A DNA stretch of 64,000 nucleotides, from contig CANEZP010000011.1 in NCBI GenBank assembly GCA_947444305.1, positions 1 to 64,000 on the forward strand. Reading direction: 5' to 3'. The notes below the pieces were generated by a model that was given only the letters and a program-made list of their open reading frames with translations, searched no databases and was not told the DNA's origin. This document shows positions 49,643-53,130 of this stretch, in pieces. A program made the position numbers and the translations under genes. How positions within the stretch are numbered: position 1 is the stretch's first letter; every line of letters begins with the position of its first letter. The DNA comes from Pseudobdellovibrionaceae bacterium (lineage in GTDB: Bacteria; Bdellovibrionota; Bdellovibrionia; Bdellovibrionales; UBA1609).

Positions 49643-49678
49643 GAACATCAAGGATGATGTTCGAATCTCAAGGAGGAG
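49643..49678 (+). promoter_or_regulatory. CsrA-like leader hairpin of first flagellin gene
   Basis: GAACATC and GATGTTC form a 7-bp stem with loop AAGGAT, and AAGGAGGAG (49670-49678) is the Shine-Dalgarno. The two GGA motifs are 20 nt apart, one in a loop and one on the ribosome-binding site, as in CsrA-regulated flagellin leaders. Confidence 0.5.
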
Positions 49679-49681
49679 AAT

Positions 49682-50527
49682 ATGGGACTACGAATTAATA
49701 CGAACACAGCTTCGTTGAACGCTCAGAGAAATTTGATGGGCACGAAGATGGGTTTGGACAAGAGCTTGGAACGTTTGAGTTCAGGCTATAGAATCAATCG
49801 TGCGGGCGACGATGCCGCTGGACTCGCGATCAGCGAGAACTTGCGCGCTCAGATCCGCGGTCTTAAACAAGCTTCGCGCAACGCTCAAGATGGCGTCTCG
49901 CTCGTGCAGGTTGCTGAAGGCAGCTTAAACGAGATCTCGACCATCCTGATCCGACTTCGCGAATTGAGCGTACAAGCCGCTTCTGATACGATCGGCCCTG
50001 TAGAACGCCAATTCTTGAACGTGGAATATGACCAGATGGTTTCAGAGATTGACCGTATCGCCGACGGTACGGAATTCAACGGCACTCAACTGCTCTCCGG
50101 TACGGGTTCGATCTTGGATTTCCAAGTCGGAACACGTAACGATCCGAATATCGATAGATTGTCCTTCGACGCTTCGAAAGCCGACGCCAACTCGGCGGCC
50201 TTAGGCGTGAACCTGACCAGCGTTGCCGATAAAGCTTCTGCACAGAACACTTTGTCTGCACTCGATCAGGCGATCGTTTCGGTCTCCGCGATGCGCGCCG
50301 ATTTCGGTGCCATACAAAACCGTCTCACCTCCACGATCAGCAACTTAGCTGTCAGCGTAGAGAATATGTCTTCCGCTAACTCGCGTATCCGCGACGTAGA
50401 TGTGGCCGAAGAGACCGCTGAGATGACCCGCAACAACATCTTGTTGCAAGCCGGTACCTCAGTCTTGGCGCAAGCCAATAGTAGCGCACAAACTGCACTG
50501 AGCCTGTTGAACAAAACTTTCAGCTAA
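49682..50527 (+). CDS. fliC: Flagellin, copy 1
   Basis: A 281-aa filament protein made only of the conserved D0/D1 parts: MGLRINTNTASLNAQRNLMG, LERLSSGYRINRAGDDAAGL, AISENLRAQIRGLKQASRNA at the N-side and DVAEETAEMTRNNILLQAGT with QTALSLLNKTFS at the C-side. The variable D2/D3 domains are absent. It closely resembles the copy at 53490, so the filament may be composite. A strong ribosome-binding site and a hairpin leader precede it. Tandem hairpins follow the stop. Confidence 0.97.
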   Translation: MGLRINTNTASLNAQRNLMGTKMGLDKSLERLSSGYRINRAGDDAAGLAISENLRAQIRGLKQASRNAQDGVSLVQVAEGSLNEISTILIRLRELSVQAASDTIGPVERQFLNVEYDQMVSEIDRIADGTEFNGTQLLSGTGSILDFQVGTRNDPNIDRLSFDASKADANSAALGVNLTSVADKASAQNTLSALDQAIVSVSAMRADFGAIQNRLTSTISNLAVSVENMSSANSRIRDVDVAEETAEMTRNNILLQAGTSVLAQANSSAQTALSLLNKTFS

Positions 50528-50535
50528 GTCAGGGG

Positions 50536-50594
50536 TTAAGTGATCTCACTTTTGAGATCACTTAATATGGGTAATCTCACGCTTGAGATCACCC
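50536..50594 (+). terminator. Two tandem hairpins after first flagellin gene
   Basis: TTAAGTGATCTCA and TGAGATCACTTAA form a perfect 13-bp stem (50536-50565). A second hairpin, GGGTAATCTCA with TGAGATCACCC (one mismatch), follows at 50569-50594. Neither has a T-tract, so they may be 3' mRNA stabilisers rather than true terminators. Both share ATCTCA...TGAGAT arms. Confidence 0.55.
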
Positions 50595-50608
50595 GCCTCC
50601 ACTAGTCT

Positions 50609-50793
50609 GAAACGTCTTTGGTCAATAGTGCTCTAGCTCACTGAAAGGTTAATCTCCTGAACCGGGATTAACTCTACCCGATCTACACGAGGCCCCGCCA
50701 TGGATGGTGGGCGCCTAACCGAGTAAACTCGGTCCCTTGATTCGATCTTTTGTTTCCTGCGAAAAACGGGGGAGGTTATCCTCCCCTCTTTTT
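50609..50793 (+). ncRNA. Candidate structured RNA ending in an intrinsic terminator
   Basis: About 185 nt between the flagellin hairpins and the peroxiredoxin gene. Hairpins: 50648-50672 (GTTAATC/GATTAAC), 50691-50715 (GGC-CCCGCCA paired with TGGTGGG and GCC, one bulge), 50718-50733 (ACCGAG/CTCGGT, TAAA loop). Long-range pairs GAAAC/GTTTC and GGTCAA/TTGATT could close a multibranch fold. A perfect terminator (GGGGAGG, TTAT, CCTCCCC, then TCTTTTT) ends it at 50769-50793. It may be a free small RNA or an attenuator leader for the bcp-type gene 121 nt downstream. It shows no signature of c-di-GMP, TPP, SRP, tmRNA or RNase P RNA; 6S RNA has similar length but I see no conserved match. Confidence 0.45.
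50769..50793 (+). terminator. Intrinsic terminator
   Basis: GGGGAGG and CCTCCCC (perfect 7 bp, loop TTAT) followed by TCTTTTT. It lies within a non-coding stretch, 121 nt before the peroxiredoxin start, so it must end an RNA begun upstream. Confidence 0.85.
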
Positions 50794-50914
50794 ATTCGTC
50801 CGCCCGGGGCTATCCCCCACCAATCCTTCACATCCCCGATATCTGTTTAGTGCACCGGCCCTTGCCATAAGCCGCGACACGCATGATTTTAGGCCCCACA
50901 CAGGAGGCACTAAA

Positions 50915-51376
50915 ATGCTAAAAACGGGCGATAAACTTCCGGCTTTCCATCTCGAAGATCAAGACGGTAAATCGAAATCAATGGCCGATTACGCGGGCAA
51001 ATGGGTCGTGCTTTACGTCTACCCAAAAGACGACACCCCCGGCTGCACCATTCAGGGTAAATCGTTTACCGAGAAAAAAGCCGCGTTCGAAAAACTTGGC
51101 GTAAGCATTCTGGGCCTGAGCGCCGATGACGTCGCTTCGCACCGGGACTTTTGCGACAAGTTTTCCTTCACCATCGATTTACTAGCCGACCCGCAAGCCC
51201 AGTACCTCAATGCTTTAGGTATTAAGCAGAGCGAATACAAAGGCACGATGTACTGGGACCGCACGACTTTCGTGATCGACCCCAAGGGCGTTGTCCGTAA
51301 GGTTTACGAAAAAGTGAATCCGCAAGGCCACGAAGACGTGCTCTTGCGCGACATCACCGAAATGAAAGGCACTTAG
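50915..51376 (+). CDS. bcp: BCP/PrxQ-type peroxiredoxin
   Basis: A 153-aa thiol peroxidase. VVLYVYPKDDTPGCTIQGKS gives the peroxidatic Cys44 in the TPGCT motif. The usual resolving Cys five residues on is replaced (Lys49); another Cys sits in HRDFCDKF near residue 88, so the mechanism may be 1-Cys or atypical 2-Cys. AGGAGG lies 8 nt before the ATG. An intrinsic terminator 121 nt upstream suggests possible attenuation. It overlaps the opposing gene by 4 nt. Confidence 0.92.
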   Translation: MLKTGDKLPAFHLEDQDGKSKSMADYAGKWVVLYVYPKDDTPGCTIQGKSFTEKKAAFEKLGVSILGLSADDVASHRDFCDKFSFTIDLLADPQAQYLNALGIKQSEYKGTMYWDRTTFVIDPKGVVRKVYEKVNPQGHEDVLLRDITEMKGT

Positions 51377-52632: not shown

Positions 52633-53130
52633 ATGAAACAGCAGAAATTGTTTAGTGAGAAAATTAAGAACGAATTTGGCGGCAGCTTGCCAAAAGGAAA
52701 ACGCAAAGAGCGTCGACCGCTACACTCGAAATTACCTGCGCACTTAGTTCTGAAGGCGACGAATACATTCGTTCTTGTGTTCAATAAGACCGAGGTTGAA
52801 AGTTTGCTGCAAAGGTACGCGAAACGTTTCGGCGTGCGCATATACGATACGGGCATTCACGCCGACCACATTCACTTGTCGGCTTTGTTCAGCTGCCGCG
52901 AGTCCTACGTGAAATGGATTCGCGCCGTCACGTCAGTGTTGGTACAAAAGTTCCGGGGTTTGAGATGGAAGCTTCGCCCCTACACGCGTATTTCGAAATG
53001 GGGAAAAGCGTTCGCGCGGCTCAGACTATATATAGGTAAGAATAAAGACGAGGGTGAGATGATTGTACGGGCGCACGATTACGTTGATCGGTTTCGTAGG
53101 AAAGCATTCGAGCGTTACGTAGTTACGTAA
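52633..53130 (+). CDS. REP-associated Y1 transposase-like protein (RAYT type), copy 2
   Basis: A 165-aa HUH/Y1 protein. Metal pair His79 and His81 (HADHIHLSAL), likely catalytic Tyr133 (FARLRLYIGKN). Same N-terminal plan as the copy at 26454 (FGGSL...RRPLHSKLPAHLVLKA). No Shine-Dalgarno and no insertion-sequence ends seen. A second, lower-homology copy implies an old, vertically kept family. It stands alone between an unknown gene and the second flagellin leader. Confidence 0.8.
   Translation: MKQQKLFSEKIKNEFGGSLPKGKRKERRPLHSKLPAHLVLKATNTFVLVFNKTEVESLLQRYAKRFGVRIYDTGIHADHIHLSALFSCRESYVKWIRAVTSVLVQKFRGLRWKLRPYTRISKWGKAFARLRLYIGKNKDEGEMIVRAHDYVDRFRRKAFERYVVT

Follow-up and report, generated by a model that had tools for sequence, protein, structure and literature searches.

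Which transcript ends at the terminator between the flagellin and peroxiredoxin (bcp) genes of a Pseudobdellovibrionaceae bacterium, and what might the RNA upstream of that terminator do? The region in question, positions 50609-50793 of a 64,000-nt stretch of genomic DNA (the window), begins 82 nt 3′ of the stop codon of the flagellin, and beyond the terminator comes the peroxiredoxin gene. A sequence-only reading of the window had described it as a non-coding 185-nt stretch with three hairpins and had proposed a regulatory RNA that matched no known class, either free-standing or a ligand-responsive leader of the peroxiredoxin gene. We found that the stretch is indeed non-coding and that the intrinsic terminator lies at 50768-50793 (plus strand), where, judged from its sequence, it would end the flagellin transcript.

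The element is the 3′ UTR of a FliC3-type flagellin mRNA

The gene upstream of the element (49682-50527, plus strand) encodes a protein with the Pfam domains Flagellin_N and Flagellin_C. It is an orthologue of Bdellovibrio FliC3, and its best matches in 29 other genomes are 75 to 96% identical. Among the flagellins, FliC3 was described as the only one without which no filament is formed, and the authors of that work proposed it as a possible developmental checkpoint (PMC2791853). The orthologue in strain HD100 ends at 385,626, with the UTR element directly after it. A DNA similarity search in 97 relatives returned the window itself as the sole match; reading the loci revealed a diverged copy of the element at L003, the syntenic locus of a same-genus relative, starting shortly after the flagellin stop codon. 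TTTCCTG lies directly 5′ of a terminator-like hairpin in 28 of 30 flagellin loci (the window and 29 genomes). Across 61 named orthologues in the Bdellovibrionales, GUUUCCUG is found behind this flagellin, just 5′ of the terminator, in 58; the three without it are L111, L114, and L104, whose contig ends there. L056 and L057 are exceptions that lack motif 2, the conserved motif described below, and it was not found in 12 more distant flagellin loci that we read.

We also considered whether motif 2 is a general feature of flagellin genes and rejected the idea: GUUUCCUGC occurred in 0 of 18 paralogue 3′ flanks from six genomes, one of which, L154, has the variant UUCCUGCGA. Six other flagellin paralogues (L144, L146, L147, L152, L153, and L160) share a different 3′ UTR structure, GGUACC..ACCUACCC-hairpin-GGGUACU, which is possibly a second conserved flagellin 3′ UTR RNA.

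Among the loci read, bcp adjoins the element only in the window and at L003, and elsewhere the neighbor is some other gene or another flagellin. We conclude that 50609-50793 is the 3′ UTR of the upstream flagellin mRNA and not a bcp leader, from which the terminator separates it. A stand-alone RNA gene had been the other proposal. With its position 3′ of the flagellin stop codon, and with no sigma-70-type promoter recognized at 50400-51000, the element is more likely an mRNA 3′ UTR, possibly processed. Two features of the surroundings were seen in passing: a long, near-perfect inverted repeat in the same-genus relative, where it separates the element from bcp (L003:2040-2110), and a Y1_Tnp-type protein encoded in the window at 52633-53127.

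Hairpins in the 3′ UTR come and go while unpaired motifs stay

Folding of 50595-50800 gave a minimum free energy of −66.8, compared with a shuffle mean of −53.5 (standard deviation, 4; z = −3.3), and none of 200 shuffles was as low. All three hairpins described earlier are present, at 50647-50672, 50690-50716 (P2), and 50718-50733 (P3), all on the plus strand. The first, however, is private to the window's genome and has no counterpart at L003; the other two, P2 and P3, do show covariation. A proposed long-range closure by GAAAC and GUUUC is not conserved, and GUUUC belongs instead to a motif predicted to pair in trans with another RNA.

RNAalifold predicted zero pairs on the raw alignment, and we tested the named P2/P3 structure in its place. 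In a covariance count over 20 UTRs, P2 and P3 together scored 0.316, against 0.169 (standard deviation, 0.021) for shuffles, with 0 of 500 as high, and slid registers of the same test reached at most 0.130. Both sides vary at all six pairs of P2. An Rfam scan placed the element in no family at the gathering threshold, and permissive thresholds added nothing; sub-threshold matches fell mainly on the terminator, and the suggested likeness to 6S RNA, based on length, found no backing there. Together with the compensatory changes, this supports the proposal of a regulatory RNA outside the catalogued classes.

In the window's clade, the P2 hairpin (CANGGANG in the window) presents the hexaloop AUGGAU on stems of unrelated sequence. 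An ANGGA hairpin loop is a recognized form of the CsrA site, as given by the consensus in PMC7652899. Over 63 UTR cores, 10 of 21 ANGGA occurrences had at least five of six flanking pairs, compared with 0 to 4 for control patterns, and an ANGGAN hexaloop hairpin of at least 5 bp was present in 14 of the 63 (shuffles: mean, 0.96; maximum, 5). The P2 hairpin may thus add a putative CsrA site of its own, the third on this mRNA, in the window's clade. Overall, hairpins come and go among the UTRs, and the unpaired motifs stay.

Two perfect hairpins that share GATCTCAC-type arms (50538-50594) lie between the flagellin stop codon and the element and are absent in the same-genus relative. They are unlikely to be terminators, since they have no T-run.

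A single-copy sRNA behind flgI resembles CsrB-type RNAs

We searched 140 genomes of the order with R1, a covariance model built from the UTR. The flagellin 3′ UTR was its only match in the window's own genome. Of 22 matches at E < 1e-5, 17 lay at flagellins of the 75 to 96% match set, and the other five (in G036, G035, G030, G037, and G029) are the sequences of the 3′ UTRs L084, L067, L065, L099, and L109. Among 20 weak but recurrent matches that we read, 13 lay antisense to another RNA locus, two were flagellin 3′ UTRs, and the remainder appear to be chance matches.

The other locus encodes an unannotated sRNA behind flgI (Pfam FlgI), with a closing stem, several ANGGA/AGGA hairpins whose stems covary, and a U-tract terminator. 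A model built from the sRNA alone (R2) found exactly one copy per genome in 102 of the 140 genomes, including the window's own, where the match is on the minus strand (G000:C19:62694-62870). When two lists covering 45 genomes were compared by hand, the sRNA was present in 32 of the 36 that had a flagellin match and in none of the other 9.

The best sub-threshold Rfam matches on the sRNA strand were CsrB at 19.7 bits (gathering score, 71) and RsmY at 21.3 bits (gathering score, 57), and the HD100 locus had no Rfam match at gathering. We therefore do not file the sRNA under either family. Several GGA motifs do lie in its hairpin loops, and in HD100 it is expressed as a free-standing transcript (below). 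In its architecture the RNA looks built to sequester CsrA in the manner of the CsrB/Rsm type, CsrA binding being predicted from the motifs.

In HD100 the sRNA is APsRNA1

In HD100, the RNA found by R2 coincides with APsRNA1 (499,375-499,581, plus strand), extending from before the 5′ hairpin into the T-tract. As a check of the coordinate frame, the stretch that Table 2 of PMC3627812 gives for merRNA does contain a c-di-GMP-I riboswitch, and its strand is the expected one. The same table lists APsRNA1 as a 207-nt RNA with 50,451 RPKM in attack phase versus 3,181 in growth phase; the paper assigns it no function and describes it as lacking significant homologues beyond B. bacteriovorus (PMC3627812).

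The flagellin 3′ UTR and the sRNA covary

Two sites in the UTR, motif 1 and CUGA...GUUUCCUGC, are complementary to two GGA hairpins of the sRNA, H2 and H3. Motif 1, like motif 2, is found repeatedly behind this flagellin in the Bdellovibrionales. In the window, motif 1 (region B; 50617-50642, plus strand) reads UGGUC, AUAG, and CUCUAGCUCACU, and by eye it could form 21 pairs with the 5′ arm and the H2 GGA hairpin of the genome's own sRNA. Motif 2 (region A1, GUUUCCUGCGA; 50752-50762, plus strand) is complementary to UCGCAGGAGAC of that sRNA over 11 pairs, one of them G-U. More generally, GUUUCCUGCGA is complementary to sRNA UCGCAGGAAAC, and the CUGA upstream of it in the UTR to a downstream UCAG in the sRNA, in collinear order. 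In the window's genome both RNAs depart from this CUGA/UCAG consensus, with CUUGAUUCG (region A2; 50736-50744, plus strand) matched by CGAAUUCAAG. The sRNA carries the partner sites of motifs 1 and 2 in the order in which the motifs themselves occur in the UTR; one continuous antiparallel duplex over both sites is therefore impossible.

We assembled both RNAs from 41 genomes and tested 40, leaving out G050, which has no motif 2. Mean duplex energies of own pairs versus swapped pairs were −39.5 versus −31.3 for region A and −49.9 versus −41.8 for region B, and they were −17.5 versus −12.9 for A2, a test from which the seed had been removed; in each case 0 of 20,000 permutations did as well, a figure that overstates independence, since these are related genomes, among them several nearly identical Bdellovibrio pairs. 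No permutation reached the own pairs within the window's family (21 genomes) either. Motif 2 hardly varies at its core, so the covariation comes from A2, region B, and the flanks of the motif. The base after CCUGC, which lies outside the pattern used to anchor the sRNAs, pairs in 39 of the 40 genomes (GC, 26; CG, 2; AU, 4; UA, 7; mismatch, 1). Variant UTRs are matched by variant sRNAs, the latter found by the sRNA-only model R2: CCUGUAA by UUACAGG in G028, GUGUGAGCCCA by UGGGUUCACAC in G061, and CUAAAUAU by AUAUUUAG in G024.

When all 40 sRNAs were ranked against each UTR, the own sRNA had median ranks of 2.5 and 5 of 40, and in the window's genome it ranked 8th for region A and 2nd for region B. 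Five genomes ranked it 14th or lower, with G051, G052, and G057 at 22nd to 25th in region A. A test of the flanks of motif 1 in the 25 of 41 genomes that could be anchored was weak, with 23 of 5,000 shuffles as good. Taken together, these comparisons strongly support pairing of the flagellin 3′ UTR with the CsrB-like sRNA, as predicted from their sequences.

A local hairpin (P1, GGUY..RRYC) had been a candidate explanation for motif 1, and in three of the four pairs of this hairpin just one partner varies; pairing with the sRNA accounts for the motif better. We also rejected motif 2 as an anti-Shine-Dalgarno sequence for the gene's own leader, where the complement is not conserved. Exact matches to GCAGGAAAC occur at 22 sites in the window's genome, none of them in the sRNA, whose version is GCAGGAGAC. 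L056, the locus of G050, shows by eye a different pairing, UACCUGCUC with GAGCAGGGUA, and lies outside the statistics, and the more distant flagellins L123, L127, and L154 have CUGAUGUG..UUCCUGCGA before the terminator, likewise complementary to the sRNA, at CGCAGGAA.

The flagellin 5′ leader has two CsrA-type sites

The leader of the same mRNA has a hairpin with an AAGGAU loop at 49643-49662 and a Shine-Dalgarno region containing AAGGA at 49667-49678 (both plus strand), candidates for an upstream and a second CsrA site. Among 65 distinct orthologous leaders, ANGGA is present at the Shine-Dalgarno position in all 65, and 52 combine it with an ANGGA hairpin whose stem has 4 bp or more, about 38 nt 5′ of the start codon; shuffles gave the leader hairpin in a mean of 2.1 and a maximum of 7. 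The leader thus appears to bear a conserved two-site signature for CsrA, whose binding is predicted by motif.

The genes csrA and fliW are both present and adjoin in the window's genome, about 5 kb from the sRNA. FliW is encoded in 117 of the 140 genomes of the order, and a comparison by hand with the sRNA list showed the two together in 94. Genus g33 (G053, G077, G085, and G123 to G133) has FliW, R2 did not find the sRNA there, and the flagellin 3′ flanks read in G053 are without GUUUCCUGC; the sRNA may have been lost or have diverged in this genus.

A proposed antisense tail on the flagellin mRNA

On the evidence above, the tail of the flagellin mRNA probably base-pairs with a CsrA-sequestering sRNA and so tunes CsrA control of flagellin. 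The direction of this regulation we infer as follows. CsrA would repress flagellin translation at the leader, and the sRNA would titrate CsrA. By binding the sRNA over its H2 and H3 GGA hairpins, the flagellin 3′ UTR would mask both or trigger joint decay, so that abundant flagellin mRNA would free CsrA from the sRNA. The outcome would be negative feedback beside FliW. The full form of this proposal, in which an mRNA 3′ UTR acts as an antisense antagonist of a CsrB-like sRNA and feeds back onto its own CsrA-controlled leader in bacteria that have both FliW and a Csr-type sRNA, is one that we advance tentatively, at somewhat under an even chance.

The pairing evidence is equally compatible with positive control, in which the 3′ UTR recruits the sponge sRNA to its own mRNA and the sponge takes CsrA from the leader in cis, or in which the mRNA is stabilized by the duplex. 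The sRNA of HD100 is expressed in attack phase, the motile phase, as such a role would suggest, but pairing that covers two of its GGA hairpins should lower rather than raise its capacity for CsrA, and we regard positive control as possible though on the unlikely side. The UTR could also be solely a CsrA decoy, acting through its ANGGAN hairpin, with the sRNA complementarity a by-product; these hexaloop hairpins are enriched, and the C. jejuni flaA mRNA is described as titrating CsrA (PMC4894983). Only 14 of 63 UTR cores, however, carry such a hairpin with 5 bp or more, whereas motif 2 is found almost throughout and shows covariation with the sRNA, which makes this improbable.

The fixed position of motif 2, just 5′ of the terminator, would also suit a role, at the level of DNA or RNA, in assisting termination or 3′-end processing, the match to the sRNA then being coincidental, but base changes at the edges of the motif track the sRNA of the same genome, and we give this very little weight. 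Least probable of all is a stand-alone structured RNA or ligand-responsive bcp leader: a fold more stable than its shuffles and the covarying P2 and P3 would be expected of one, yet synteny ties the element to flagellin and not to bcp, and it is the unpaired motifs that persist as hairpins are gained and lost.

Relation to known systems

Some mRNA segments act as sponges of sRNAs by base-pairing with them, as in SroC/GcvB and chbBC/ChiX. In those pairs the sponged RNA works by base pairing, whereas here it would be one that sequesters a protein. By analogy, the flagellin mRNA would act as an sRNA sponge of this mRNA-derived kind, coupled to the CsrA-FliW switch. The sRNA is like CsrB, CsrC, RsmY, and RsmZ of the Gammaproteobacteria in its closing stem, ANGGA hairpins, and U-tract terminator. 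It differs from them in scoring below the gathering thresholds, in occurring in the Bdellovibrionales, in coexisting with FliW, in its position behind flgI, and in its predicted pairing with a flagellin mRNA.

The switch formed by CsrA, FliW, and flagellin, as described for Hag of B. subtilis and for the flaA mRNA of C. jejuni, which is both target and sponge (PMC4894983, PMC7652899), shares the two-site GGA leader, CsrA, and FliW with the case presented here, to which the Bdellovibrionales would add an antagonist sRNA and an antisense 3′ UTR. FliX, an sRNA from the E. coli fliC 3′ UTR, is likewise a regulatory region in a flagellin 3′ UTR and lowers flagellin, as we propose for our element, which, too, lies in such a UTR and includes the terminator. 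The pairing partners of FliX are the fliC coding sequence and mRNAs of the S10 operon, whereas the predicted partner of the window's UTR is a CsrB-like sRNA; CsrA does not occur in the main text of the FliX paper (PMC10578931). Neither the element nor its pairing with the sRNA was found in the open-access papers searched.

If the proposal is true, it adds a layer of RNA control that has not been described for the Csr system in that open-access literature, and it may be a first example of a CsrA sponge that is regulated by base pairing with the tail of an mRNA. FliW and Csr-like sRNA systems would then meet on one flagellin mRNA. APsRNA1, an attack-phase RNA without a function in the paper that reported it, gains a candidate role with exact base pairs, and the covariation of a flagellin 3′ UTR with a CsrA-sponge-like RNA points to an unrecognized RNA-to-RNA control of motility.
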